DNA from: Bryoerythrophyllum caledonicum
Lineage: Eukaryota; Streptophyta; Bryopsida; Pottiales; Pottiaceae
Reading direction: 5' to 3'
Assembly (NCBI GenBank): GCA_963971425.1
Contig: OZ020518.1
Span: 9,031,989-9,095,988 of the forward strand
Length of the DNA stretch: 64,000 nt
Positions 1,522-63,908 of this stretch are shown here, piece by piece. Numbering within the stretch: position 1 is the first letter of the stretch; the number at the start of each line of letters is the position of its first letter. Position numbers and translations under genes: made by a program. The notes beneath the pieces were generated by a model. The model worked only from the letters and a program-made list of their open reading frames with translations, ran no database searches and was not told the origin of the DNA.

Positions 1522-2831
1522 TATATCCCTTGTGTAACAATTCTTAAACTTTACTTTACAAAGGAATTACGCAACTTAACTTTACAAACGAATTTTTTAA
1601 ACATGCAATGAGAGAATTATATATATCCCCAAACATAAGGGCTCCTGTAAACTTTTAACCACGGAGGAAATGTACAAGTTACTCAACAATAAAATGTTGC
1701 ATGAGTGCCCCACAATAAATACCCCCTTTTCATCCATTGAGAAATAGTGAGAACCTAAATCAGTATAATCTACCATTCAAATTTTGTACCTATTTTTTCC
1801 ATGATATTTTGTATGTATCAATTACATAGTTCTTGGACATTATATCTAATTATATATTACTTATAACCATATTTCACACTTTAAAAGCAATGTATGTTAC
1901 ATGTACTTTCTTTATAAAATTTATCCTAAGTGAATATATTTGCCCCTATTTCTTTATCGTACGTCGTTTCTACAATTTATGCCAGTGGCCCCTTCGAGAT
2001 TACTTTTTTTCCCAACTTCCCCAAAAAGTGTAAATGTGCTCTACTTGGATTAAAATGTATTTTAACAACAAAGAAAATACTTTGTTTTTGGAATCTTAGA
2101 AGAAGGTAATACGCTTTATATATACGTATTCTACAATTGAATCCAATGTTAAGAAGGGGCATGGAAAGATAAACAAAAAAGTTAAGGAACATATAAATAG
2201 TTTGCACGTGTTAGAGGAAATGTAATAGTTTCCATTTGAACATAAAGAAATTGACATTCCCAATTTATAAATACGGCATATGTATAGTACATCACAAAGT
2301 CAAAATTATATTTATTTAGGAAAAGAATTTCATGCAAACCATACAAAGTTCTATTGTTATTGTATATAGACATGTGTTCAACAAAGAAGTTAATAGTTAT
2401 GTCCTATATTGCTAGAAATTTTACTAGAGCTTCTATTGACATTTATATTTTTTGTACACCTATATGTATACTAAAAAACATTTGGTCGTGTGTCTGTCCC
2501 CTACATCCATAGCTTTTACAATAGACATGTTTAATGTGACCTTTTGAAGGTGTCACCCTTAGTTGCAAAGCCTTTTGGAGTTTCATCTAACCTTTGCAAG
2601 GTTTAATCAATTTAAAGTTAAATTGACACCATTTAGTAAGAAGTGTTGTGAGAGAACCACTTTGACTTTGGAACATTGTGGCCTTTAGAGAATGCTTTTA
2701 TTTGCATCATCTTTCTTTATGATTGAATAAAGCGATAAATAATCATAACCTCAACAATTTAAAGATAGATATTTCATCGACCCTGCGGTTATGAAGAGTA
2801 ATTCGTGGATTGTTCCAAAGGGGTTGTTACA

Positions 2832-3825
2832 CATTGGATGATTCGACATTATGCTTCATAAATTTGAATATGACCTTAAAATGAGTCATTTAAGAACACA
2901 TCTTTACATTAAAACTACATTGCTCAATGGTATTTGTCCGTCGATAATAAAGGAGGTTTCACTTGTGCAAAGAATATTACCTTCTTTGAAAATGTCAAAA
3001 AGAATTTGTTGTTTATAGTGTAATACAACACTCTAATTCAAGTACCACCATAGTCCACCCAATTATGGTGGGAGATCCCATGGCCTCGTTGTATGGGGAC
3101 CCACAAAGCCCTTGGGAGAGATGACATGTCGGTTATCTTTAATGCAATTAGTGTAGGGAAGCACTTAGTGTGGAAAAGTGTTTACCCTCAAGAGGGGAAA
3201 GAGTAGTTCTTTGTACACTAGCCTATGTCCCGTGGCCATATGCTTAGTGAAGAGAATGAACGAACACTACATTCACGCCGGTCCCATTGGAAGACCGTAG
3301 TTCTCCTTCTCCTAATTCAAGTCCAATAGAATCATTTAGAGCAAAAAGCCGCTATATTTGGTTCCGACAAGATCTTTGCATTCCTCAATCATCACGGCAA
3401 TCATGTCATTCCCTAGAAGTTGGAAGGAAAACTAAATTTACATTAAAAATATCGTTTCTCTAACGCATAGGAAGGAGGAAGGCCTTTGCCAAGGCGAGAA
3501 TGGAGTTTGCCCAACTTTGTTCCTCTACAACCTTCAAAGGGTTGAGTCCTCGCCCTCACGTCCCCGCCCCTAACGTCCCCGCCCCTTCCCCGCCTAAATT
3601 TGGAGTCAGAATGTTTGAATGGGTATAACTCACTCAAAAATAGCCTAAATCAAGCGTTTGAGGTGTGATTTGACATCTAAATTTTGCGTAGATGCCAAAA
3701 AACATATCACACGCTTAATTTGGACTATTTTTGAGTGAGATATGGCCGTTCAAAGATCCTGATTCCAAAATTGGGCGGGGAGGGGCGGTGACGTCTCCGC
3801 CCCTGCCATTTAGGGGCGGGGACGT
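2832..3825 (-). repeat. Right arm of about 1-kb inverted repeat
   Basis: This is the reverse complement of about 541-1521. The match starts at an ATTGGATGATT motif and runs outward into the GC-rich AGGGGCGG repeats. 1522-2831 between the arms is AT-rich spacer with no convincing gene. Confidence 0.9.
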
Positions 3826-3918
3826 CTCCGCCCCTGCCATTTAGGGGCGGGGACGTCTCCGCCCCTACCATTTAGGGGCGGTGACGACTCCGCCCCTACT
3901 ATTTAGGGGCGGATACGT
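3775..3918. repeat. GC-rich 31-bp palindromic minisatellite
   Basis: About five tandem units of 31 bp, each a CCATTT-like spacer plus a near-palindrome of the form AGGGGCGG-GGACGTC-TCCGCCCCT. The left arm of the fold-back element has only one to two such units (541-570), so the array expanded on the right side only. Confidence 0.85.
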
Positions 3919-13143: not shown

Positions 13144-14096
13144 TTAACCCCTAAGGATCCAAGTATCAAAAATGGGCTTTTTGAAAGTTCGGTCAGGTTC
13201 CTATGGTGTCAATTTCCAACATTCTTCTTTTAATTTTTTACTATAGAAAGACATTACCAAGACCTTAGTGGGAATTTTTTTTCCTCTAAATTGGACATTT
13301 GATGAAAAAGTTATAGGGTTTTGAATTTTAAATGGGGAGGGCGGGCACCTCGGGCACCTCCAAAAACTTTTGATAGGACACTCTATTGAGTGTAAGATTT
13401 TTCAGTACTTGCAAGTAATATTATTTCCCTTCATATTGTCAAAAAAAAGTTATTGTCTTTAGTGAAAAATAGCATACCAACCCAAGTCAAACATTTTCAC
13501 ACATTGTCACTCATTGTCGGGCAAGGTACCCAAAAAACTTCTTCTTTTCCACATGAAACCTAGAGATCTTCATATTTTTCACTTTTTGTTTTTTCCACAA
13601 CAATATGTAATGTAAACCTTCTTATTAACCATTTGGATTATCAATCAAAAACATATTAAGTTCAAAAAAAATTAAAGTGTGAATTAACAAATTTTGAGCC
13701 TCCACTCCTTGCACACTTGTTTTGAATATGCTACACCCCGTCTCTACCTCTAAAAATTGGTGTGTAAGGAGCTAACATCATGCTTAACAAGATGGTAATG
13801 GATTTAGACCTTGTGTAGTGAAAATTTTTGACAGAAACTGAAGTCAAAGTCTGCTGATCCACTAAACGCAGGGAAGAAAATGAACCATTTGCTTGACTTC
13901 AAACACTATAATCTTTCAATCCGTACGGTCAAAGTTTATGAAATTTTGTACATGTATTACTTAATGAGCCTTTATTGAAATCCTACGGTCAGAACTGAAA
14001 ATCAAAGTTTTTGTTTCCTTCTTTATTCATTGCACTAGAATCCAACAATTTTGAAGTGTTTTTGGTGCAAAACTATCACGGTGCCTTAGGGGTTAA
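13144..14096 (+). mobile_element. TTAA-flanked piggyBac-like MITE, family R copy 1
   Basis: Both ends carry the same 13-bp inverted sequence: TTAACCCCTAAGG at 13144-13156 and its reverse complement at 14084-14096. That reads as a TTAA target duplication plus a CCCCTAAGG terminal repeat, the arrangement piggyBac transposases make. The element is 953 bp with no transposase frame. A full-length inverted copy lies at 39249-40199, and partial copies occur at 15130-15896, 42433-43160 and about 24370-24760. Confidence 0.78.
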
Positions 14097-15133: not shown

Positions 15134-15896
15134 AGAAAATATTGTCGAGTGCGGATAGGTCGGGCAACTTCAAAACTTTTGCTAGGACACTCTAGTAAAT
15201 TTGAGATACTAGCAAGTAATATTATTTCCTTTCATATTGTCAAAATAAAACTATTGTCTTTATTGAATAAATGCATTTTATCCCAAGTCAAATAATTTCA
15301 CACATTGCCACACATTGGGCAAGGAACCAAAAAAACTTCTTCCTTTCCACATAAAGCTTTGAGATCTTCATTATTTTCACATTTTATTTTTTCTATAATA
15401 TTAGAAGACGTGGTGTAAACCTTCTTATTGACGGTTCGGATTATCATTCTAAAACAAATTTTGTTCCCAAAAAGTTAAAACGCAAATTGGCTTTCTTTGA
15501 ACCTCCACACCTTGCACAATTTTTTTGAATATGCTACACCCCTTTTCTACCTCTAAAACTTGGTGTATAAGGAGTTAATATCATGATCAACATGATGATA
15601 CAAAATTTAGACCTTATGTAGTGCAAAACTTTGACACCAAGTGAAGTTAAAGTTTGCTGATCTACTCAACACAGTGATGAAAATGAACCATTTTTTCTAC
15701 TTCAAACACCATAATCTTTCAGACATGTGGTCAAAGTTGATGAAAGTTTGTGAGTATGTTACTCATCAAGTGCTAAATGAGATCCTAGGGTTAAAACTAG
15801 GAATACAATTTTTGTCCCCTTCCTTTCTCATTGCACTAGAATTAACAGTTTTGAAGTGATTTTGGTGTGAAATTGTCAAGGAAATTTAGGGGTTAA
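15130..15896 (+). mobile_element. Family R MITE, truncated copy 2
   Basis: Collinear with the right three quarters of 13144-14096, ending ...TTTAGGGGTTAA at 15896. The left inverted repeat and about 200 bp are missing. The copy abuts the right TTAA of the 431-bp MITE. Confidence 0.7.
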
Positions 15897-33528: not shown

Positions 33529-35247
33529 GAAAAATAAAATGTAAAAATAAGATTCTTGGACACATTGTATTTTATATTTTTGAGGCTTTTATTGCTACAA
33601 TTCTTCAAAAACTTGAAACAACATTTATGACTGTGGAATTTGGTTTAGGATATTTTAAGATGTTGTAAATAATTACTTGACTATAGGAACATTAACTACT
33701 TTTTAAAAAATATGCGAGATTTTTTGAAGGAAATATCCACGTGATACTTAGTCATACCCTTGAAAGAAAAGTGTCCAAAACTAATTGATGGGAACAAGTG
33801 GAAACCATGTAAACACGTTAGAGATGTTATAAGTTTGCAGAGGATAAGGCCAACAAAATGAACGGTTTAGTACTAGGAGAAGCACATTTTCATCAATGTT
33901 GGCATCCCGTTACTAGAAGAATTTGAAACATATTGAGTCTACTTTCATGTGGTTTTGAAATGAAGGTACAATACATTATCTCCCACGTAGTTGTGATCCC
34001 TCGATTCCTGTCCACTTGAAGGATCTAACGAGGTTCATTTGGGTTTTGAGGCACCAATTTAACCATTCTTGAATTCTTTGGCCCGCGGTAGCCCCAATCT
34101 CTCCTCCACTCAGATCTGAGAAGTGCTTGATACTACAATGTTAAGTCATCCGAAGGCCATGGATTTGCAGCAACATTGCGCCGTCGAAGTGCTGTGAAAT
34201 TATGGAACTTCTCAATGAGTCTATCCAAGGCGTCGAGCTCTTCGATTGTCAGAGTTTTGAGGCCACAGTCAAGGAGTACGTCATCGCCCGGTTTGCAATT
34301 GCAGATGCATTGACTCCGATGCCGATGCCGACTTCGTTAAAACGCGTGTAAGACTGGATACTCTTTCAACCCCTATTGTTCCTCGGTAGTTCTCGCGTTG
34401 TTTCTATCAGAAAACTCTCTCTCCACCCTCCATAAAGCCAATCGCAGTGATGCTCCTACAACACTGCTATCAACAAGTCGATGGATCACCTTTGATGTGA
34501 CTCTGAAGCGCATTGCTTGGAAGATATGTGGCAGAAGGGCATCAAATTTAAGAGGATTTACTCAAATTTCATCTTGTAGCAAAAAATACGTCTTCTGGAT
34601 TGCCGCAAGGAGAGTGCATTTGTCCGTACACGCGTTGAAGTCTCCAAGGAATAAAGGTGTTGGCGTCATTGTCCATAAAGGTGCTTCTATATCGATACCT
34701 AACACTGTAGATGGATTGAAAATATAAGAACAACAATAAATAGAATAAACAACAATTGAAAATAAATAAATAAAATAAACAATAATTTCCTTACAAGAAC
34801 CTCAAGGTACATAATCAGACATGGAATTTAACACTCCGCACGTCACCCCATTAAAGTGCTACAAAAACCTTGACATCCTAGACAAGTACAACTTACAACT
34901 CTAGATGTAGCTCGAACAAAACGACTCTTGCTAATGAATCAAATTGTGAATCCACCTTCTAGGAATCCACTTATATAGGTTTAGGGTTAGATTTCTCTAC
35001 CCACTATTATTGGTATAATCCAAAGGGAAACATGTTAAAGTCGGCATAAAGTTTGCAGTTAGAAATTTATAACTGCAAACTTAATTAGGAAATTGCCGCG
35101 AATAATGTATGCAAAGGTGGTATGATCATGTAAGAGGATGAAAATATAATTTAAGATTTACGTATTTAGCAATGCATGACTCATAGGTGAATATGAAACA
35201 CGTTTTACCGTTCAGTTTAATACAAGTTCTTACTATACACCAGCAAT
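33529..35247. other. Intergenic stretch with one decayed coding-like segment
   Basis: From about 34200 to 34340 the forward strand reads ELLNESIQGVELFDCQSF and then EYVIARFAIADAL. This has protein-like composition, and a further frame follows at 34398-34727. I do not recognise the protein, the frames are short and broken, and no element ends are visible. Confidence 0.35.
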
Positions 35248-35820
35248 AACACACAATTAAGCAATTATGCACTTGGCCATATAAAAGTGCACTTGGATGC
35301 AACGGCGGCCATTGCGAACAAAAGTGGCAAAATTACAAAATTACAAAAACAAAACAATGAAAAAAATTATTTTCAAAACAAAAAAAAATTGAGGTTCTGC
35401 AACAATATTACGTACAATCATGGTTGTTAATATTGGAAGCGATTTTTTGGCATTTTCAACTCATTTTTGGTGGCCCCTCGTTATTACTAGATAAATGTGT
35501 ATTTAATATAGTTTCACAATATTTCAAAGATAGATTTGAAGGATTGTAGTGTACAAACAGGCGTAATCACAAAAAACATACTTTATGCAAGGGTTGGCAG
35601 TTGATTAAAAGATATTCTACGTAGTACATAATGCATACAATGGTGGAAACTAAATATAGACTCTTCTACAAATGGACTTAGCACCAATAGTAAAATTACC
35701 TTTACTCTATAGGATTAATGACATAACGTCTTACATCACCCTTAGAATATACTACTCTTACACATACACTATATATCAATTACCATACACAACTAGTACA
35801 CTCTCATAAAGGCACACTAT

Positions 35821-38800
35821 CTACTCCATAGAATTTAGGGCTGCTTGCAAACGGTCGTCATCGATAGCTTTGGTTTGCATTGCAATGTATTGTAGGATGT
35901 GAGCCTTTGCCGATTGAAGAATGCGAATCCTGCTTTCAACCTGCACTCCAAATACATTGCGCTTTCTCCACCCGCTGGCCTCGGACATGGTTCTTTCCGG
36001 TGTGTCTATCCATGAAAAAATGCATGCATCTTTCTCTACCCAACTATGGCTCTCCCCAGATGGCTCGCAGAATGAATCCATGCAATTTGCATACCGTTGT
36101 GCAAAAGACCCATGTCCATTAACAACCCCCTTTGGATGATGGGCCAATACCAACAAACCTTTATCTTCACTCTCAATCGGTTTTTTCCTTCCTCAATCAC
36201 TTTCCCCACATAGAATCGTACACCGCCTTCTATATCTGCTCGATCAACACTCAAGGCTACAAACTGTCCACAACAGATATCAGATTGTGGATTAAATGGT
36301 GGAAATGGGTCGTGATTACCTGCATACATTGCTCCTTCTTAGGCGCGTTCCTCAACATAGTTGCGCTCTGTTCGTTGTGCCCTACGCACTACTTGATTAG
36401 AAAGTCTTCCTCTACGAGGACCAAAGTATCCTTGAGCCTCGGCATTTGGAAGCATGGCCACTACCTGCTCTACGACATTTACCTCGCGATTTTCTTCACT
36501 TGCACCATCCATTACATCCAAAGATGCACTCCCTGTAGGTCCGGTGTTGGAGAACTCTGAAGGCCAAAACGGTGAAGTACGATGCTCATTGCTATGGTCT
36601 TTGTGCGGAAATTGAGCTAAATAGAGTTTCAATCTTTCAACCTCTACTTTTGCCTCACGATTCTTGTCCTCATGCTGCAATCTTTGAATGCACATTTGTT
36701 TATATGTAATGAAATCATCCAACGCCTTCAACTCCCGTTTGTCCGCTGCAAATACTTCCGCAAACGATGGTCGCTCATCCCTATTTGGCAATGACCTCAA
36801 AGTTTTTGTCCCTGCCTCCGGTCCCCATGGATCCTTGCAATAATGCTTGTGTTGTACTCGAACCTCACGAGTCCCTTCTCGATTGTCCATATAGAATCGC
36901 ATGTGGTGCGGAAATGTTATGCCCACCAATGAATCCTGACCTATCAGTAAGTGAGGAGTTATGAACAATTTCCAATCCCATACATTCTCTAGCAGCCGGG
37001 CGCTAACAAATGCCTCCGTAGAAGATGTTCCTCGTTCTATAAGACTAATTATTTCCTTCAACGAGTCCACGTCCGACCTCTTCAACATATTTGATATACA
37101 ACTGAAGCGTTGATCAATATCTTTGTGTGTATGGCCCACTATAAAAAAAGATAGTTCCACCTCCTGAAAAAACCCCAATCCCACCAATGTAGCACATAGA
37201 GCAAATATATAAATGTTTTTGTTCTCACGTGTGCAGTTGTCCGTCTGAATTCGCAACGTTGGTGGCAAAAAGCCCCTCCTCCGCAACACATCTCCTATCA
37301 CGTACAACAATGTACTCACAACTTGGTTGCTATCGTGTTTGTGGTGAGCCCCAAACCACACGTCGCAATATAAACCAATCCCATGTACAAGAGCACCACA
37401 AAGATGGGTCTTCACAAACCGGTGTTTAATGTTCTTCACAGTCTGACGCATCCTCAATACCATCGTCGTGTTTTGGTTCATCCCATCCACTATGATGCAC
37501 ATGTACAACTAAGGGCTAATATAACACGACCTCTTGAATATCCAATAATGCCTACGTTCTTCCATCTGGCTGCGCAGATGCAACATAAACAACTCCTTTA
37601 TCTTAATCCTTGCATCCGCATTGATGGTTCCCTCCATGGCACATTTATACTCCCAACAATGATAACACTTTGAGAATCTTGAGAATGGAGGTACCTGAAC
37701 GTAGGGATACTTCATGCGCCACATCCTCCGGAACGAACTCATAGAAATGGTTTCCCCATTACAAATTCTCTTGACCTCCTCGTTCACGTAATTGAATACA
37801 TCAAATTTGGTTGTATTCATAGGAAGGAGAATAAGAGGCACCACTTCGTTGTCACTCCTACGGCAAATACAACGATGAGGTTGAGGACAACCAGCTTCAT
37901 CGACAAATGATTTAAAGCAAGCCTCTGCCGCAGACATTCTAGTGCTCTCTCTGATCGGATTTGAAAAGATATTCCCGTGAATCGATGTCACTCTTCTATA
38001 TATTAGATAGTCCTTCTTCAATTGCTTAAAGCGCCTCTGTGAATATCCAACCCCAAGAGCGTAGCAAACATTGCAAACTTGTTTTCCATCTAACTTTGTT
38101 ACAAACTTGTCTGGACGAGTTTCTTCTGTCCTTGTGTAAAAAAAAACCAGCATCTGTCATATCCACGTACTTCGTACTGAAAACTCTGTAGCCCATGCAT
38201 TATATTGCATGTCCAATAGATACCTTGCTGGAACGTCCCTCAAACAATTGTGTTTGCATCCTCCTTGTGCCATTGCAATTTGCACGCTTCTAAGCGATAC
38301 CTTAGATGGTGCAGCTTCTGTCAATGATGGCTCTCATGAATCTCTTGAATTCTCTCTTGAATCTCTCCTTCTTATTTTGTATAGAATATGGACGACGTGT
38401 TGGTCTAACATAAGCAAATCCATCTACATGGGGCAAATCTTGGATGTTTGAGGGAGTAGGCTAGGAAAACGACGAATTTTCATCTACGGCGTTAGAAGCT
38501 TGACTACTGCGTCGAGACCTCTCGGTGGATCCTGGTGTGTTGATGAACTCAGGATAATCAAATTCTGGGGCCATCACTTGTGTAGGTGCTATCTGTGATC
38601 CAATGTCACCATGGACACTTGTAATATCAGGTTCTACAGCCACTACACGTAGCAAAGACCGATGCCAACGAATGATCAAGCCCTCACACATGCCAAGGCG
38701 TTCTCCTACAATCTCTCCGGTCCAATGCAATGCATCATCTATCATAGTGATACGCACCGCCACCTCGAATGGGAACAACTTCGACCCATTCAATTCCATA

Positions 38801-39069
38801 CCACTTTTGAATGCATGCTCCTTGGTTGCTAAGCCCACCACATCTCCTCTTTCAGAAAGCAATTCTACTGCCCTTTCCAATTCACGTGTTGTGATTCCAA
38901 CAGATCTCTGTTGAATTTGCCTTGCATGTGTTGCTCGTACTAATCGAGCCCCCACAGAGCTATTGGAATGCATATTATTCCTTTGGATGTGTGGCCGTAT
39001 CGAAGGAGTCTGAATCGTGCAGCTCTCCATTACCACTATTGAAAAAATAGGAACATTATGGCTGCACAT
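35821..39069 (-). pseudogene. DUF7869-like, RNase-H-fold transposase-like protein
   Basis: One gene in several broken frames, about 1060 codons from ATG 39069. The N-terminal part is variable, then come a Cys motif GCKHNC and LRDVPARYLLDMQYNAW (38270-38200), KQVCNVCYALGVGYSQRRFK (38070-38010) and CYHCWEYKCAMEG. The core follows: IIVDGMNQN (37490), KTHLCGALVHG, QTDNCTRENKN (37240) and FFIVGHTHKDIDQRFS (37140). D-, D- and GHT(H)xDID motifs in this order match DUF7869-type proteins, which I believe have a DDE/RNase-H-like fold. The C-terminus has a barrel-like segment (GGVRFYVGKVIEEGKN). Breaks are TAG 38463-38461, TGA 38159-38157, TAG 37511-37509, TAA 36341-36339, and frameshifts near 38350 and 36150. 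The family assignment is from memory. Confidence 0.62.
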
Positions 39070-39248
39070 TAGTCAAAATACATGTACTAATTGTTAACCC
39101 TCAAAGCACCATTCATTTGATAAAAGATATGTTTCTAAACACATATTCATTGTTCAAAATATGATGATGATATTGGACCTTTTGATAAAACAACTTTGAA
39201 ATGAAAAAATTAAGAACTTGTAGAGCATGAACTCCTTGCACAGAGTCT

Positions 39249-40199
39249 TTAACCTTGAAAGTACAATGACAGTCCTACACCAAAAACACTTCAAAATTGT
39301 TGGATTCTAGTGCAATGAACAAAAAAGGAAACAAAAACTTTTATTTCTAGTTTTGACCGTAGGATCTCAATTAAGACTTATTAAGTAATATGCAAATAAA
39401 ATTTCATAAACTTTGACCGCACGGATTGAAAGATAATAGTGTTTGAAGTCAAGCATGTGGTTCATTTTCTTCCTTGCGTGCAGTGGATCAACAGACTTTG
39501 ACTTCACTCCGTATCAAATTTTTGCACTACACAAGGTCTAAATCCATAACCATCTTGTTAAGCATGATGTTAGTTCCTTGTAAACCATTTTTTAGTGGTA
39601 GAGGACGGGTGTAGCATATTCAAAACAATTGTGCAAGGAGTGGAAGTTCGGAATTTATTAATTCACATTGTAATTTTTGTGAACTTAATATGTTTTAGAT
39701 TCGTAATCCAAATGGTCAATAAGAAGGTTTACACCACATATTGTTGTGGAAAAAATAAAAAGTGAAAAATAAAAAGATATCTAGGTTTTATTTGGAAAAC
39801 AAGAAGTTTTTTTGGTACCTTGCCCAACACTGACTAACAATGTGTGAAAATGTTTGATTTGGGTTGATATGCTATTTTAAACTAAAGACAAGAACTTATT
39901 TTGACAACATCAAGGGAAATAATATTATTTTTGAGTACGGAAAATCTCACAATCAACAGAGTGTCTTAGGAAAAGTTTTTTGAGGTGCCCAACTTGCCCG
40001 CTCATCCCATTTGAAATTTAAAACCCTAAAACTTTTTGATCTAATGTCCAATTTAGGTAAAAATTGTTTACCCACTAAGGTTTTGGTAATTCCTTTCTAT
40101 AGTAAAATTTTCAAAGAGGAATGTTGGAAATTGACACCATAGAAACCTGACCGAACTTTCAACAAGCCCATTTTTTACACTTGATCCATTAGTAGTTAA
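39249..40199 (-). mobile_element. Family R piggyBac-like MITE, copy 3
   Basis: Full-length inverted copy of 13144-14096 (951 against 953 bp). It is bounded by TTAA at 39249-39252 and 40196-40199. The 3' terminal repeat has decayed. It sits between the two genes of the 12.5-kb element, so it inserted into that element. Confidence 0.72.
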
Positions 40200-41500
40200 A
40201 TATGCTACACATCTTTTGCATTCATAAACATTGGTGTATAACGGAACTAATCATTCTTCACATGATGATAATGAACCTTAATCATGTGATGCAATCTTTT
40301 GAATCGAAGTGAACTGAAACGAAGGGAATCCACTGAACCTAGGGAAGAAAATGAACCATGTCATCTATTTGCTATAACTAACACCATTGGAACTTGTTAC
40401 AATCGCTAATAAAAGAAAGGGTTTGTACATCCACATAAAGGTTATTCTACAAACAACATAATACAAAAGATCAATCAAGAATCAATCTTAAACTTGTATA
40501 AAAATAAGTGCTTACCTCAAGATACATTGCAGGTGTTAGGGGTACACACACTGATGCTTGATGGCGTTCAACATTATATCACCATTCCGTCGTTGTTGTT
40601 GGACATGTTTTTCAACCCTTCCCACTTTACCTACACATGCATAAAGTTTATATGGTAAACTATGTGATAAGAAAATCCTATATGTACCTTCGTATTACAT
40701 ATAGCCCAAAATTTTAGTATAATATATTAAAAAATTTAACATAAGGAGAAACAAAGCAAAAGGTCCAAAGTTTTTAAAGTCAAATTCTGACTAGTAAACT
40801 TGTGGCACAAGGTTCCAACATGGATATAAGGTTTCTTTGCAAACCCTAGAGGTCTCTTCTCTTCCCACTTTCTACAATGAGTTCTCTTGCAATCAAAACC
40901 TCAGTCATGTGCATTTTTACTTCATTCACTGATTTCTATCAGATTTGTTTGTACTGCATAGATTGGAGGAGGAATTTTGCACATCGAGGAGAATTTTACT
41001 TCAGTAAGCTCGCTAGGGCTAAAGTACCTCATGGTGTTAACCACCAGGGTGAGAAAACGACACAGTTTCAGAGTCCCAGAGCATTCAACCCACTATTGCA
41101 GGTCATGCAACCATTGCAAGCTTACACTTGGTAAGCTTCTGACTTCTTCGCTTCAATGCTCAATACGAGGTTACAATACTGTAAGTTCATCTGATACTAG
41201 TATTTGAGCACACACATGGACACCAACTTTGATATGATCAAAATCGCAAATTCCACAAAAGTTGAATGATTACAGATTATAGATGTCAACAACTCGTGAG
41301 TGCAACCTATATACTACAGAAGTAATGAAACCAAAACCACACTGAACTGAAGTCAAGTAGTAATTGCTCGTAGAATGGCACTAGTAGCTCGTAGTATGGC
41401 ACTAGCACTACCTGAAATCCTAGCCGCCACAACCAAACCCTAGCCGCCTAAACATAATCCCGTGGAGTTCGCGAGACGCCTCATGGAGTAATTGTAGACT
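40200..41500. other. Gene-free stretch inside the 12.5-kb element
   Basis: 40200-40360 resembles another family R interior (CTACAC, GGTGTATAA and GATGATAATG blocks). The rest shows short open frames without recognisable content. Confidence 0.45.
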
Positions 41501-41640
41501 AGAGGTGTGCGCGCGCACACCCCCTACTGCTGGTGCTCCTCCATCCACCATAACCGTGCAAGTTCGAAGGTGCGCGCGCATAACTCCTACTGCTGGTGCT
41601 CCTCCATCCACCATATCCGTGCAAGTTCAAAGATGCGCTG
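41501..41640. repeat. Tandem duplication of about 68 bp next to a GTGTGCGCGCGCACAC palindrome
   Basis: Two units with CTACTGCTGGTGCTCCTCCA and TCCACCAT...CCGTGCAAGTT. The first is preceded by the palindrome GTGTGCGCGCGCACAC (41505-41520), the second by a degraded version, GTGCGCGCGCAT. Confidence 0.8.
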
Positions 41641-41781
41641 CAAGAGGAGATCAAGGAGCTGATGAACACATAGGTGGTGGAGCGCAACGAGAAGGAGAAG
41701 CACAAATTCAAGTTAAGAAGAAGCACGAATTCGAGATAAGGTAACTAGGACAAAACTTTGTTCATTGGTTAGATTATATGG

Positions 41782-41981
41782 NNNNNNNNNNNNNNNNNNN
41801 NNNNNNNNNNNNNNNNNNNNNNNNNNNNNNNNNNNNNNNNNNNNNNNNNNNNNNNNNNNNNNNNNNNNNNNNNNNNNNNNNNNNNNNNNNNNNNNNNNNN
41901 NNNNNNNNNNNNNNNNNNNNNNNNNNNNNNNNNNNNNNNNNNNNNNNNNNNNNNNNNNNNNNNNNNNNNNNNNNNNNNNNN
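41782..41981. other. Assembly gap (200 N)
   Basis: Exactly 200 unknown bases, a conventional placeholder size. Open frames drawn through it are meaningless. The true distance between the flanks is unknown. Confidence 1.
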
Positions 41982-42218
41982 CCTACCTGCGCGGCGCGGC
42001 CTTTCAACAAAAATTGGTCCTCAATCATGACCTCTCTCAACTTCAAAGCCATCTCTCCCAAATCCTAGCCGCCCACATCTCCTCTCCTCCCTCACAACTC
42101 TTCTCTCCCCACCCTCCGCCCTCACAAGCCTTCATTGTCTCCGTCTTCCTAACCCTACAAACTCTCTCTCCTCTCCTCCAAACTCTCACACTCACAGCCT
42201 CCCTCTCAACAACTGCCA

Positions 42219-42385
42219 GGGGTGTGCGCGCGCACACCCCTCCTTGGACTAACCAAAGGTGGAAGGATTGATACCCTCTAAACGAAAACCCTAATTGATA
42301 CCCTAACATAATACCTAGGTTGATAACCGGGTTGTGGTACCCAGGGATTCATACCCTGGTGGTGATACCCTCGCTATTGATACCC
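42219..42385. repeat. Second GC palindrome followed by GATACCCT-rich DNA
   Basis: GGGGTGTGCGCGCGCACACCCC (42219-42240) is a perfect 22-bp palindrome with the same core as 41505-41520. From 42270 to 42385, TGATACCCT-like units recur about eight times with irregular spacing. Confidence 0.8.
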
Positions 42386-42432
42386 AAAGTTCCATAGTTC
42401 ATAAATGGTGTAGAGAATATCTCAACCAAAAC

Positions 42433-43160
42433 TCGTTAAAAATGGTTGTTTTAGTGCAATTAGCTTGGATGTAAAAATAAAGTTTTTTTTGTAGTTTTAA
42501 CCGTAGGATCTCAGTAACGACTTATCAAATAATATACTCTCAAAATTTCATAAAGTTTGACCGCACGGATTAAAAGATTATAATGTTTGAAGCAGAGAAA
42601 AGGCTTATTTTCTTCCCTGCGTTTACTGGATCAGCAGACTTTGACTTCAATTAGTGTCCAATTTTTGCACTATAAAAGGTCTCAATTAATTACCATAATG
42701 TTAAGCATGATGTAAGTTTTCTATATACCGATTTTGAGAGGTAGACAAGGAGTGTAGCATATTCAAAAAAATTGTGCAATGAGTGGAGGTTTAAAATTCT
42801 CAATTTGCGTTATATTTTTTTGTGAACTTGATATTGTTTGAAATGAGAATCCAAATGGTCAATAAGAAGTTCTACATCACATAATGCCGTAGGAAAAATC
42901 AAAAGTGCATCATACAAAGATCTCAAAGTTTTATGTGGAAAGGTAGAAGTGTTTTTGGTACCTTGGCCGAAAATGTGTGACAATGTGTGAAAATAATAGA
43001 CTTGGATTGATATGCTATTTCACCAAAGAACTAACAACATGCTTGATACAATGGTATTGGATTTAGATCTTCTGTAGTGCAAAAGTTTTAGAGGTAGACA
43101 AGGGGTGTAGCATGTTCAAAAAAATTGTACAATGAGTGGTGGTTCAAAAATTCTTATTCC
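42433..43160 (-). mobile_element. Family R MITE, truncated copy 4
   Basis: Same orientation as 39249-40199 and collinear with it (TTTGACCGCACGGATTAAAAG, GTGTAGCATATTCAAAA, and other blocks) but without TTAA ends. The last about 120 bp (43040-43160) repeat part of its own interior. Confidence 0.6.
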
Positions 43161-43216
43161 ATACTAATAGTAACTATCGTTTTGTAATGATATAGAGGTT
43201 TTTTGAGTGTTGCGTT

Positions 43217-46200
43217 ATGGCACCACCAAATATTGATAGAATCTGGGAGAGCCACGGCTGGTGGATCGCGGAAGTGGATGAGTCAAACGCCTTCTTGTGG
43301 ATGACGGATTATCTGTTTGAGCTGGGGAAGCGTACATTGGCGTTGGGAAAGAGTTTTGGCAAAATCCAAGCAATCACTCTTCGACGTGATGATATGGTAT
43401 ACGTTACTTGCGCACTGGGTCCAGGTCAATCGAAGGTGAAGACTTCTCTTTCGAAGAAGTTGCTTCTTGCACCTATTCCTTAGAATCTTCTTCAAAATCC
43501 AGGTCAAGTGAAATTCCTCAAATCATTACAGACGTTTTGGTTGAATATCTCTCTTGCGGTACGTACTGCTAGAGACAATAACGTCTTAGCCTGTTTAGCG
43601 TTATCATCGGAGATGGTGCTAAAGGCTAAGAAGATTATGGAGGAACATATCAGATATGAGGCATTTCGGGAGAGGGATCCATCACATGCGACAATTCAAG
43701 CCCCACCAACGGAACCAGAAGAAACAAAAATTTATCGAGTTCTTGCTGAGCCGTTGCAACTGGATTGGCAACCACTGGAGGGGCGGAGGGGAAATGAGGG
43801 CCAACATCCCTCTACAACTTCTGAGGTACAAACATTACCTAATCATCCATTAACGAGTAGACGTCCCACAAAGAGGCCACGGCGTGTTGAGAGTGATGTA
43901 GCTTCTGGTTCAAGAGAAGGCCCATCAAGTTTGAATCCAAGCGGGAGGAGGTTGATTGGGAGAAGTGTAAGATCGGGTGGCAGGGTTCCTAGGTCGGGGC
44001 TCAAGACGTCTGATGGTCATTGTAAGGCCCCTACATCTACTCCGGGAGATTTAGCTGATTTGTCAGCCATGGGGCCGGAGGAGGAAGATTTTCACAACCT
44101 TCCAGACAGTATACCACAGGATTTTGAAGACAATGCGGAGATACCACAGGATATTTCTACTTCAATGTATTTAAAAGCATCAGTGCCTACAATGGAGGAG
44201 ATTGATAAAAGATCAGTGTGGGGAATTTGGTGTTTAAGGCACACATAGACCGCATTGTCTCTGTGGAGATCCGGAAACGAACCACCGGGTTTTATCACAA
44301 AAGAGGGTCATAGAAGTATTTAATCGCTTAAGAGACCCAGAATCCGTGACTCAGATGAGTAGATTGGTACTTCGACCGATCAGATACATTGTGCATACTA
44401 CCACCGATGATGGTGTCGTTGAGAAGGAGGAGCTGCCATTTCCGTTGGTAGGTACCGCACGAGAGTTTGAGCGCATGTTCATTGCACACAGGAGTGCTTC
44501 TGCACAGGGTTCTATGGGAACTCAGTATTCTTGGCTTCAAGATCATATCATTTGGGAACCGGCGGATGGACAACACATAGTAGCAGCTTGTAAGTTTGCA
44601 CAGCAGCAGTGGAGAGATGGTACTATGCCTGTAAATGAGTACCTGGACACGATCGAGCGGCGGAACGCCTCTTTTTTGGTGTATGATGATCGCCGCTTTT
44701 ACATTGAGAAGTCTATGCGGATCAATGTGGCGGAGTTCTAGAGACATTCATATTTTACCATGGAGGAGGATTTGAGGAAGCTCCTTCAGATTCGGGATCT
44801 TTACGGAAGGCCTGATAGCACACTACGTGCGGACGATGCACGCAAGGCTGTTGCTTTGGTGAGTGCGGCAAGTACAGTGCATAAATTACCCCAGGGGTAT
44901 GGAGTTGTCACGGTGAAGAGGTTGTCCAAAAACATGAAGGATCTGACCAATCATGTATGGAATCCGAGCAATGACTGCTTCGAAGCTATCATTCAAGTAT
45001 GCAAGGACTACGAAGATAGCATTCTCTTTTACAGCAAGGAGGAAGAGGACAAGTGGAAGGCCATGGCGAGGAAGAAAGAGCTGGATTCAAATGTGGACGT
45101 ACGACCAACAAGAAAGGAGATGACCCATAATTGATTGAGGCCATTAGGTAGGGTTCCGAATCCATATTATCTTCATTTGGCAAAGTCTGCTGCAGCGAAG
45201 CCGGTGAGGGAGGATGGAGTAAGACCTCGTCAAGCATATTACTTCGACGGTGTTAAAGACAAGAATCCACATCCTCGTACAATTGCCGGTGTGGTTGACC
45301 GATATCAAAGACGAGAAGTTGTGATGAATTCCATCCGTTGATTGATGGTGGAGAACAAGGAAAGTACACTTGATTCAATGGAGGAGTTTTTTCGTATCCA
45401 TGTAGGGAAGTATTTTCCAAGGAGTAATACACAACTTGATACCTTTGGGAAGCTTTTGAATGTTGCCACGAAAAAAACTTGGACTGCTCCTGTGCGGGGG
45501 AAGGTGTCTAAATTGGAAGACATAGGCTACCTCATCCCCCCTTCCATCAGGTTTCATTATGGTGACATTGCAGCATGGGGGCGTGGATACATTGGACTAT
45601 CCGTGGATGTGGGAGGATTGGCTACTACTAATTGGGAATGGCAGATGGAAGTCAAGAGGCCAGGGCAGAGCGACACAAAGAATTTTCTTTCAGTTCCGTG
45701 TAGAAGAGGGTTATTCCACACTGACTACATAGAGTTGGGGAAACCATGTTTGTAGTTGATTGATTGTCGACGTGGCGGTGGAAGGCATGGAGATGGTCAT
45801 TGGGGAGACGCCCAGTTATCCGCAGCTTTTGCACAGCTGGCATTATGGATGGCAAATATTGAACCATGGAACGTCATCTTCTTGTTACCAGCGGCCGTAT
45901 ATGCCAACGAAGAGTTTTTCACGAAGGTGAAGCTTCCAGAGGGATGTACTATGCGACGTGGATGTTGGGCATTTGATCCCAACTCGGTTAATCTCTATAC
46001 TCTTGATTTTACAGAGAATGGGCGTGTGGAGCAAGTCGTACAACCGATTGGCAATATTGTGATTTGTATGCAGCACCCTGTGGCTACATCTCTTGGCCCG
46101 AACTATGTTTCTGGAGATGTTCCACTTCCACTTGTTCTCTTGGATCACTGGAGTGAGGCACGCCAACCCTCTGAAGTTGATTCACTTGAGAGATCTCCAT

Positions 46201-47180
46201 CAAAGTTGGCAAGACTAGTGGGCTCATACTTGCCCCGTGGTTGGGGTTTAGTGGCGTGTAACATATCTAGGGCCATTCCCACGATCCTTGAAGGAGATTT
46301 CCAGGGATCTCAGGTTTTCATCATTGACGATTGTATAGTCAGAGTTTCATTCTTGTACAATGAGTTGTCTAATAATTTCCAAAGACAACTGTTAGTCAGG
46401 ACTGGTGGAACAAGTATTGGTTGCAACATCATACCTGAGACTGAAGAGGCGGTTGGTGGAGTGAGGAATGAAGAGGACAATGAGGATGGAGGTGGTTTAC
46501 ATGAAAGATTGCCACGTTCACGTACCACTGAAGATTTTTCATCTCGCAGTGGTTCAGACGTCGATGAGGATGGAGTGAACCAGTCTCCTCCAAGAGAGAG
46601 AATTTCATCGACACAGCGGACGGTGAGAGATACTTCAGGGGAGACGTCTGCACCACCTACAGAGAGGATGCAAGATACAGGTGTAGTAGATGTTAGTTTG
46701 GCGGCAGGGGCAGGAGGGGGGCGTACATTTGATGGTCCTAGGCTGGAGGTGGAGGAAGAAGGATTGGATTCATGTAAATTTTTTTCGGAGTAGAGGAGGA
46801 TTCCACAGCCTTCCATGCCTTCTCAAACAGAGCCTGTATCGGAGACACAAGAGAGGTTCTGAGGTACTCAGAGTGATACCGGACCAAGTTTGTCTTCCGT
46901 TCCAAGATCTAGCGTATCCGAGGACATCATTGCATTTCAGAGGGCCTTCTCATCAGAGCGAGAGATGTCCTTCAATGCAGAGGATGGCTTTTTCTATAAT
47001 GATGACAGGGTAAGGCATACACGGGAGGGTGTTCCTGGCAATTACCGATTTGTGGAGTGTGCGTCCATTGGCATCGAAGATGTGGGAGATCGTCCAGTGG
47101 AGGATCATGAACTATCTGCTATGGTAGGTAGCGCCATTGGACACGTGGAGGGAGTCGTTCCGCCAGAAGATGAGTTGTGA
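43217..47180 (+). pseudogene. Large element-borne protein of unknown function
   Basis: The frame from ATG 43217 to about 44240, and after one frameshift (44210-44240) the frame to TGA 47178-47180, encode about 1310 residues. Seven in-frame stops interrupt it: TAG 43481, TAG 44739, TGA 45132, TGA 45339, TAG 45753, TAG 46791 and TGA 46860. Between stops it is fully open and protein-like. The N-terminus holds WESHGWWIAEVDESNAFLW. A basic Ser/Arg linker (43840-44000) has PTKRPRR, a likely nuclear signal. The most globular part (45480-46170) includes LIPPSIRFHYGDIAAWGRGY, HWGDAQLSAAFAQLALWM and PWNVIFLLPAAVY. The C-terminus is acidic and Ser-rich. I do not recognise the family. Its place opposite a transposase-like gene suggests an accessory transposition, DNA-binding or anti-silencing role, which is inference only. 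Confidence 0.6.
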
Positions 47181-47746
47181 GCCGTGGAGCTATATACTAT
47201 AGTAGAGCATCCACACAGTTTAGGTGGCAAGTACATTAGTATAATGCAGTTTGAGATGTGTCTATCGTTCGGTTGGTGGTATATATTTATTTATTGGGTG
47301 GTCCATATGATATGTTTGATTTTAGAATTCCTCAGCAATAGTGTGGAATTGCTTGATTATGTATGTTTTTGCATTATAAAATACAGTGAGGTACTTTACA
47401 CTGTCTTAGGAATTTGCATATGTATTTTTGTATGTCTTACACATTGTATTTGTAGTGCAGTACTCTAAAATCCTGTAATAACTCATAACACATTTATAAT
47501 TTCTTTGGGCACATGATCATAATTTTGTAGCAGGATTTGCAAACTATAGTAGAAATCATATATTTTCTAAAAAAAGGTAGCGAATGTAAAAAATATATTA
47601 CTGATATAAACATGAAGATGCCAATGTATGACACGACAAACACCAAATTTTTTTGACAAAAAACATACTAAACTTTTGCCAAATTTTGATTTTTAAAAAA
47701 GTTGTGAACAAATCATTTGCGGCTTTCTACCAGCAACCAGTGCACT
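47181..47746. other. 3' non-coding region of the 12.5-kb element
   Basis: AT-rich, with no gene after the stop at 47180. The last about 50 bp are weakly inverted-similar to 35280-35330. Confidence 0.5.
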
Positions 47747-48026
47747 TGGCTAAGTGCATAATTGCTTAATTGCGTATTCAATATGTATCTTGTGTGTGTA
47801 GAAGAGGTTGTCTATGAAAGTTGTATACAATGGACATTGGATGATAGTTGAATTTAGATTACTAATTTTGAATCACAATTTAGACTCCTCAATTGATTGT
47901 AATGACTTACCAAAATCAAATATGACCTATGCAGATAATATATAAGTCTCATGCGATTACAATGATGATGTCAACAACTCATTAACTCATAAAAAACAAA
48001 ACAACAAAACAAAGGGTCGACACGGT

Positions 48027-55443: not shown

Positions 55444-56530
55444 CTACCTATATATCAATAATTTGTCCACGTTCCTTTGGAAGCTAAAATAGCTTGGATG
55501 CAGTTGGGCATGCGATGATAAAACCTTTGACACTGCATAGGAGTGATAGAATAATTTAAAAGAATCTTGTACACGCTCCCATAACTCAAGCATTCCATTG
55601 GCTAGTGTTGGATACTCATTTAACCTTGGTTTCACAATTGCCCACACATGCTCAATCGGTTTTACATTAGGTGATTGAGGGGGCCAAGTAAGCACATCAA
55701 AATCTTGCATTAATATCCAATGTTTGACTAATTTAGCAATATACTTAGGGTCATTATCATGTTGGAATATAACATGAAAGGGATTGAAATTATACAATTT
55801 AATTGTATCTATGAGCTCATTTTGAAAAATCCTACAATGTAAATCTTGTTTCATATTCCCCTCTATCTTGCACATGTATGCCATGCCACGAGAAGTCATA
55901 CAATCCCACACAAAAATTGCACCACCTCCATGTTTAATTGTTTGGCTCGCATGACGAGCTTGTAAATGATGTTCTTCATCCCGTATCCTACACCAAGCAC
56001 AACCACTGGCTCACATGACGAGTTTGTAAATGATATTCTTCATCCCGCATCGAACACCAAGTACAGCCATTAGATTGAAATCCATTGATCTCATCACTAA
56101 AAATCACCCTATTCCAATCATGCACAGTTCAATCTTTATGTTGTTGAACAATTTCTAACCTGGAACGTATATTCTTGACCGTGAGTAGTGGCTTCTTCTA
56201 CTTCTCTAGAGACCCAAGACCCGCTTCATGAAGTGTTTGTCTCACTGTGTTGGTGCTAACTACCACGTTCAATAACTCACTCAAAGCATTTCACATCTAT
56301 TGCAGTATTTAGTCCACTTGAAGAAATAGCTCTAACGCACGCTCGCCTTTGAGCATGGATGATGTGCTTTGGGCAACCTCCTTTTAAACGTTCTACATAA
56401 GGATCCTATTCACTATGAATCATAGAACATGTGGATTGAGAGATGCCCAATAATCTGGACACCTCACGTGTGCTACACCCATTCTACAATAGGACTATAG
56501 CACTCAAAGTTTATCTTTTGATAATAATCT
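55444..56530 (-). pseudogene. Tc1-like DD34E transposase
   Basis: From the N-terminus, broken frames show the helix-turn-helix part (NGCSTREVSRLLGISQSTC near 56490-56430; LGSLEKKKPLLTVKNIRSR-like near 56200) and the first catalytic region VIFSDE (56100). An intact stretch from 55911 then reads WDCMTSRGMAYM, FQHDNDPK and WPPQSPNVKPIEHVW, ending at 55444. Between the second Asp (QHDND) and the Glu (PIEH) there are 34 residues, the DD34E spacing of Tc1. A 64-bp tandem duplication (55944-56007 and 56008-56071) shifts the frame, and several stops lie upstream. The enzyme is dead, but its catalytic domain is well preserved. Confidence 0.85.
55944..56071. repeat. 64-bp tandem duplication in the Tc1 transposase
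   Basis: Two diverged copies start with GGCTCGCATGACGAG and GGCTCACATGACGAG. On the reverse strand both encode the segment around CxWCxxRDEExHLQxRH. Since 64 is not a multiple of three, the duplication breaks the frame. Confidence 0.85.

Positions 56531-60205: not shown

Positions 60206-63908
<3,703 letters not shown>

Follow-up and report, generated by a model that had tools for sequence, protein, structure and literature searches.

A probable high-copy, two-gene DNA transposon with a DUF7869 protein in the genome of Bryoerythrophyllum caledonicum

The plant transposons En/Spm (CACTA) and MuDR encode a second protein besides their transposase and carry repeated motifs near their ends; target duplications are of 3 bp in En/Spm and of about 9 bp in MuDR. 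The Sola superfamily, as characterized in the passages of a published account, has a transposase of the three-aspartate (DDD) type, 4-bp target site duplications (TSDs), terminal inverted repeats (TIRs) of 11-1,124 bp and a size mostly of 2-9 kb, with some elements above 15 kb, and is present in Physcomitrella (PMC10741241). Excerpts of other papers list it for the same moss, as Sola1 (PMC9033089), and for the fern Azolla (PMC6786969), and attribute AWWT targets to Sola2-type elements (PMC3627910). Here we describe a locus in a stretch of 64,000 nt from Bryoerythrophyllum caledonicum (GCA_963971425.1, contig OZ020518.1, positions 9,031,989-9,095,988 of the forward strand), hereafter the window. 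An initial annotation of the letters alone had proposed that inverted ends and a possible CAAT duplication enclose two large divergent genes, and simulations and genome matches bear this out. With a probability of roughly 0.88, we read the locus as one decayed copy among many of a TIR DNA transposon of the autonomous type, 12.5-14 kb long, which encodes a DUF7869 transposase of the DDD type (gene A) and a constrained companion protein (gene B).

Ends, target duplications and copies of the element

The two ends were recognized through a repeat search, simulations and genome matches. The left TIR, at the gene A end (35248-35279, + strand), and the right TIR, at the gene B end (47747-47778, - strand), are inverted arms of 32 nt with 91% identity, and 25 of the 26 positions match in a 26-bp core; the left one has a G in ...CTTGGCCA where the right one has an A in ...CTTAGCCA. 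When up to three mismatches were allowed, this core occurred in the window just at the two element ends, and the pair scored 45.5 bits in blastn, whereas no inverted repeat went above 42.8 when the 13.4-kb region was simulated in 200 first-order Markov versions. The left and right copies of the CAAT duplication lie directly outside (35244-35247 and 47779-47782). Inward of both ends a 6-nt gap is followed by a second common block with AAGTGCAC-TGG-TGC. The inner extension of the left end (35280-35304, + strand) bears a second AAGTGCACTT motif and is also found at the left ends of ten other copies, and a further AAGTGCAC motif, on either strand, begins at 47740, immediately inward of the right TIR.

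In the host assembly (437,360,962 bases, or 437 Mb, in 894 contigs) the core, again with up to three mismatches, had 1,986 matches (982 forward and 1,004 reverse) versus 0 for the reversed control. Among the first 100 of these places, all of them exact matches and situated on two contigs, 24 neighbouring facing pairs lie within 25 kb, of which 12 are spaced 12.5-14.5 kb, four are at 11.3, 15.8, 16.6 and 19.1 kb and eight are at 2.2-7.1 kb; 21 of the 24 combine a G end with an A end. The remaining 52 ends have no partner among the 100, a set from which a partner with a mismatch would be absent. Ten of the 12 pairs spaced 12.5-14.5 kb, picked by size (12.5-13.9 kb), were taken as full-size copies, and in all ten both genes align with those of the window at the same position and in the same orientation, with 88.8-92.8% identity to the window in the gene-covering blocks; in P9, gene A is interrupted by a small gap. 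The ends thus bracket both genes in every copy examined, as had been proposed for a large two-gene TIR transposon.

The other copies usually have the end AACACGCAATTAAGC..., which the window shows in a slightly worn form, and the ends of the ten full-size copies are mostly AACACGCAATTAAGCAATTATGCACTTRGCCA, with R standing for G on the gene A side and for A on the gene B side. This rule holds in 11 of 11 full copies, the window included, and at 8 of 8 further end loci, among which are both ends of the 19.1-kb pair. Inward of all eight the sequence agrees with that of the respective element end, at L009 and L010 in part only. Directly outside both ends, a script found four identical bases in 10 of the 11 full-size copies including the window (TAAG, CTTA, GATG, CCTA, CTTA, GAAT, CAAT, CATA, AATG and CAAT), and in the eleventh, P10, where 8 extra bases at the right end misled the script, the TSD is ATAC by eye. 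Counting P10, which was read by eye, all eleven therefore have a duplication of the fixed length of 4 bp, as predicted from the window, and the eleven TSDs are 70% A+T. The 19.1-kb end pair (L014/L015) is flanked by TACT and TACC, identical at three of four bases, and has no duplication. That the window ends form an inverted repeat by chance and flank genes unrelated to them can be regarded as refuted, with a residual likelihood close to nil, by the 1,986 genomic matches against none for the control and by the TSDs in all eleven copies; multiple copies with TIRs and a TSD of fixed length are what is expected of a TIR DNA transposon.

Copy P8 (loci L022 and L023) has both genes open and intronless, with 1,066 codons for gene A and 1,341 for gene B, and from the first plausible methionine the proteins would have about 1,063 and 1,314 amino acids (aa), respectively, so that the second protein is indeed as large as had been claimed and longer than the first. 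In another copy, P11, the frame of gene B extends over 1,213 codons. The proposal of an autonomous-type element is sustained by P8, whereas the window copy itself is broken in both genes and is not autonomous.

Between the two genes the window has an intergenic repeat block (39249-40199) and a second, related one (42413-43165), and similar blocks are present in the ten other copies, which disfavours the simple version of the idea that these middle repeats are later nested insertions. The intergenic repeats are also found outside elements: further copies, about 73-86% identical, lie in the window at 13144-14096 and 15147-15896. At two end loci (L009 and L011) the element end adjoins a repeat of the intergenic type just outside, and copies of this repeat may be insertion targets of the element, the evidence being one-sided.

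Gene A and the DUF7869 domain

Gene A occupies 35821-39030 on the - strand, with limits drawn from copy P8. In its main frame (36036-38360), 5 of 775 codons are stops, where shuffling gives a mean of 50.5; for gene B, whose longer part spans 44280-47180, the count is 7 of 967 codons where the mean is 56.0, the end stops being included in both. These low counts indicate that both genes were formerly coding. In the window, gene A is now broken by in-frame stops and frame changes and gene B by stops and a frame change, and this copy is accordingly unable to make either protein whole.

The 389-aa main piece of gene A matched one Pfam family, DUF7869 (PF25273), at 36873-37424 (- strand) with 166.8 bits (E=5.5e-49), over the curated cut-off of 26 bits, and gene A is clearly a member of that family. 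The residues D263, D345, D385 and D387 are invariant in an alignment of 12 gene A proteins, from which L045, L047 and L049 of the 14 gene A loci were left out and in which the other 11 proteins are 45-96% identical to the first. On the - strand of the window, as counted by hand, the codon of the first conserved aspartate (IVDGM) is at 37485-37487, that of the second (DN..RENKN) at 37239-37241, and the GHTHKDID motif, which contains the third acidic position, at 37113-37136. In the structural model of gene A, strand 257-262 stands before D263, strand 339-344 before D345, and a helix at 384-398, which follows strand 371-376, bears D385 and D387; by the alignment and the predicted model, three invariant acidic residues come in RNase-H order, as in transposases of the DDE/D type. 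The initial suggestion that the DUF7869 protein is the likely transposase is supported, and very probably it is the transposase of the element. From the motifs, the order of the fold and the TSDs we infer that gene A would provide the catalysis. The Pfam entry for DUF7869 gives no function; its presence at this locus within an element bounded by TIRs and TSDs would offer a functional reading, with a testable mechanism, for a domain of unknown function; DUF7869 genes could then be masked as transposon genes in genome annotation.

A search of the host genome with PF25273 gave 3,608 first-look candidates, and the best 150 of these, a favourable sample, were scored: all 150 were over the curated cut-off, and 66 had an open frame of 1,040 aa or more with no stop inside the domain. 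The same search of 14 control genomes gave no match. Fourteen of the scored DUF7869 loci are 36-97% identical to the P8 gene A, a range that points to several subfamilies, with the distant ones (L036-L042) at 36-46%. Four of the matches (C9:16369984, C3:18240523, C9:4860007 and C9:4884169) have identical scores and open frames of 1,087 aa, which suggests near-identical, recently moved copies of another subfamily. In comparison with P8, the ratio of nonsynonymous to synonymous divergence (dN/dS) of gene A was 0.21-0.29 in four of eight comparisons, two of them with near-identical copies, and the other four, with more distant copies, were saturated at dS.

No relative of gene A was confirmed in the prokaryote, phage, plasmid and viral collections, and none was confirmed for its upstream part among viral contigs. 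The GHTH motif, searched in the form of DNA patterns, had 0 places and then 2 viral and 5 bacterial ones, whose frames had no further resemblance by eye, and all seven were judged to be chance. Three recA chains, the sole matches of the gene A main piece among PDB sequences, involve residues 324-379, outside DUF7869, with no stretch passing alone, and were considered spurious. A fold of the window gene protein from a single sequence, with a mean predicted local distance difference test (pLDDT) of 33.5, was useless and was discarded.

Gene B, a second large protein

Gene B (43217-47180, + strand) would encode a companion protein of about 1,314 aa and is decayed in the window, where its frame changes near 44.25 kb and is broken by in-frame stops. 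It had been annotated as without a recognized domain, and this was upheld: no Pfam family was matched by its pieces or by nearly its whole length with X at the stops, at E up to 10, and a 346-aa core had no match in PDB sequences, PHROGs or NCBIfam; a PHROG match at E=0.021 was not used. A search of viral contigs only with a 215-aa part of gene B confirmed no relative.

Given the lack of any family match for gene B, it might be a passenger of host or other origin that hitch-hikes with the element and is dispensable for transposition, and captured genes are known from elements of other superfamilies, for example Fanzor1 (PMC3627910). We nevertheless consider a passenger rather unlikely, as gene B is found in all ten sampled full-size copies at the same place and in the same orientation, and its dN/dS in comparison with P8 was 0.27-0.34 in four of five comparisons, with 0.53 in the fifth, which is the shortest piece. 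Judged from sequence divergence, both genes appear to have been under constraint as proteins while the family spread. An alternative role, which we hold to be improbable, is that of a degenerate DNA methyltransferase-like protein of class beta countering the silencing of the element: stretches in the second half of gene B resemble, by eye only, the order of motif IV followed by motif I in what we take to be the class-beta motifs. The catalytic residues are not recognizable, however, and neither the Pfam search at E up to 10 nor, for the 346-aa core, NCBIfam and PDB sequences gave a match. Our guess is that gene B helps at the DNA or chromatin level, by end binding, transpososome assembly or anti-silencing. 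Why an element of 13 kb should retain and conserve another protein that exceeds its transposase in size is a question raised by this locus.

In the mechanism that we propose for the autonomous-type transposon, the product of gene A would be an RNase-H-like transposase of the DDD type that binds the 32-bp ends along with the adjoining palindromic AAGTGCACTT motifs, cuts the element out and re-inserts it with a 4-bp stagger, leaving the 4-bp duplications, while the gene B protein may assist at the DNA or chromatin level. We infer that this would be cut-and-paste rather than another DDE route. The ends, the target size, the candidate catalytic residues and a copy with both genes open make such a mechanism testable. 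Some observations weigh against the reading of the locus as such a transposon. The gene A model has a mean predicted local distance difference test of 66.4, the pLDDT around the third acidic site is below 50, and fold searches with this model gave weak matches; the RNase-H fold foreseen for the D/D/GHTHxDID region is supported in part, by the order of elements in the model. Also, the initial annotation had named ends at unrelated spacing as a point against the element, and this was partly seen, since 8 of the 24 facing pairs among the first 100 places span 2.2-7.1 kb, too small for both genes. These short pairs are probably internally deleted derivatives.

Relation to Sola and further features of the window

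The locus differs from En/Spm (CACTA) and MuDR in that it has no CACTA termini, its TSD is of 4 bp and the main piece of gene A matches DUF7869 only. It resembles Sola, compared by description only, in its DDD-type transposase (three invariant aspartates with a presumed catalytic role), its 4-bp TSDs, its TIRs of tens of bp and a size within a range that reaches above 15 kb. The element could hence be a member of the Sola superfamily, in which case DUF7869 would be the domain of one group of Sola transposases and novelty would be confined to the family and its companion gene; we give this a little less than even odds. The lengths of TSD and TIR, the element size and the three aspartate motifs all agree with the description in the passages available to us, whereas those same passages on Sola make no link to DUF7869, and the element seems unlike Sola2, none of the eleven TSDs being AWWT. 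None is TTAA either, and the second gene, of about 1,314 aa, sets the element further apart from Sola.

The initial annotation had called the element undescribed. No publication naming DUF7869, PF25273, IPR057191, PTHR34415 or any of four motif strings was found in the literature searched, but the novelty is doubtful because the anatomy of the element fits the Sola description as far as the cited passages give it. Only tentatively, then, do we entertain the view that DUF7869 marks a superfamily of its own among the DDD transposons of eukaryotes, with targets of 4 bp, with the gene A transposase and the larger gene B companion as two obligate proteins, and with a very high copy number in this genome, a view to which we would assign well under an even chance. 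The element is of interest for its companion protein and for the scale on which the family occurs.

Elsewhere in the window, no Rfam family at gathering score and no tRNA gene was found. An open reading frame (ORF) at 55444-56010 (- strand) has a weak match to DDE_3 (E=7.5e-6, 26.3 bits, below the Pfam cut-off of 28.6) and looks Tc1/mariner-like by eye, and a 431-aa ORF at 60910-62205 (- strand), with no Pfam match above cut-off, contains a many-fold repeated unit. Inverted arms of about 1 kb with 97% identity at 516-1541 and 2809-3833 perhaps belong to another, younger element with long inverted repeats.

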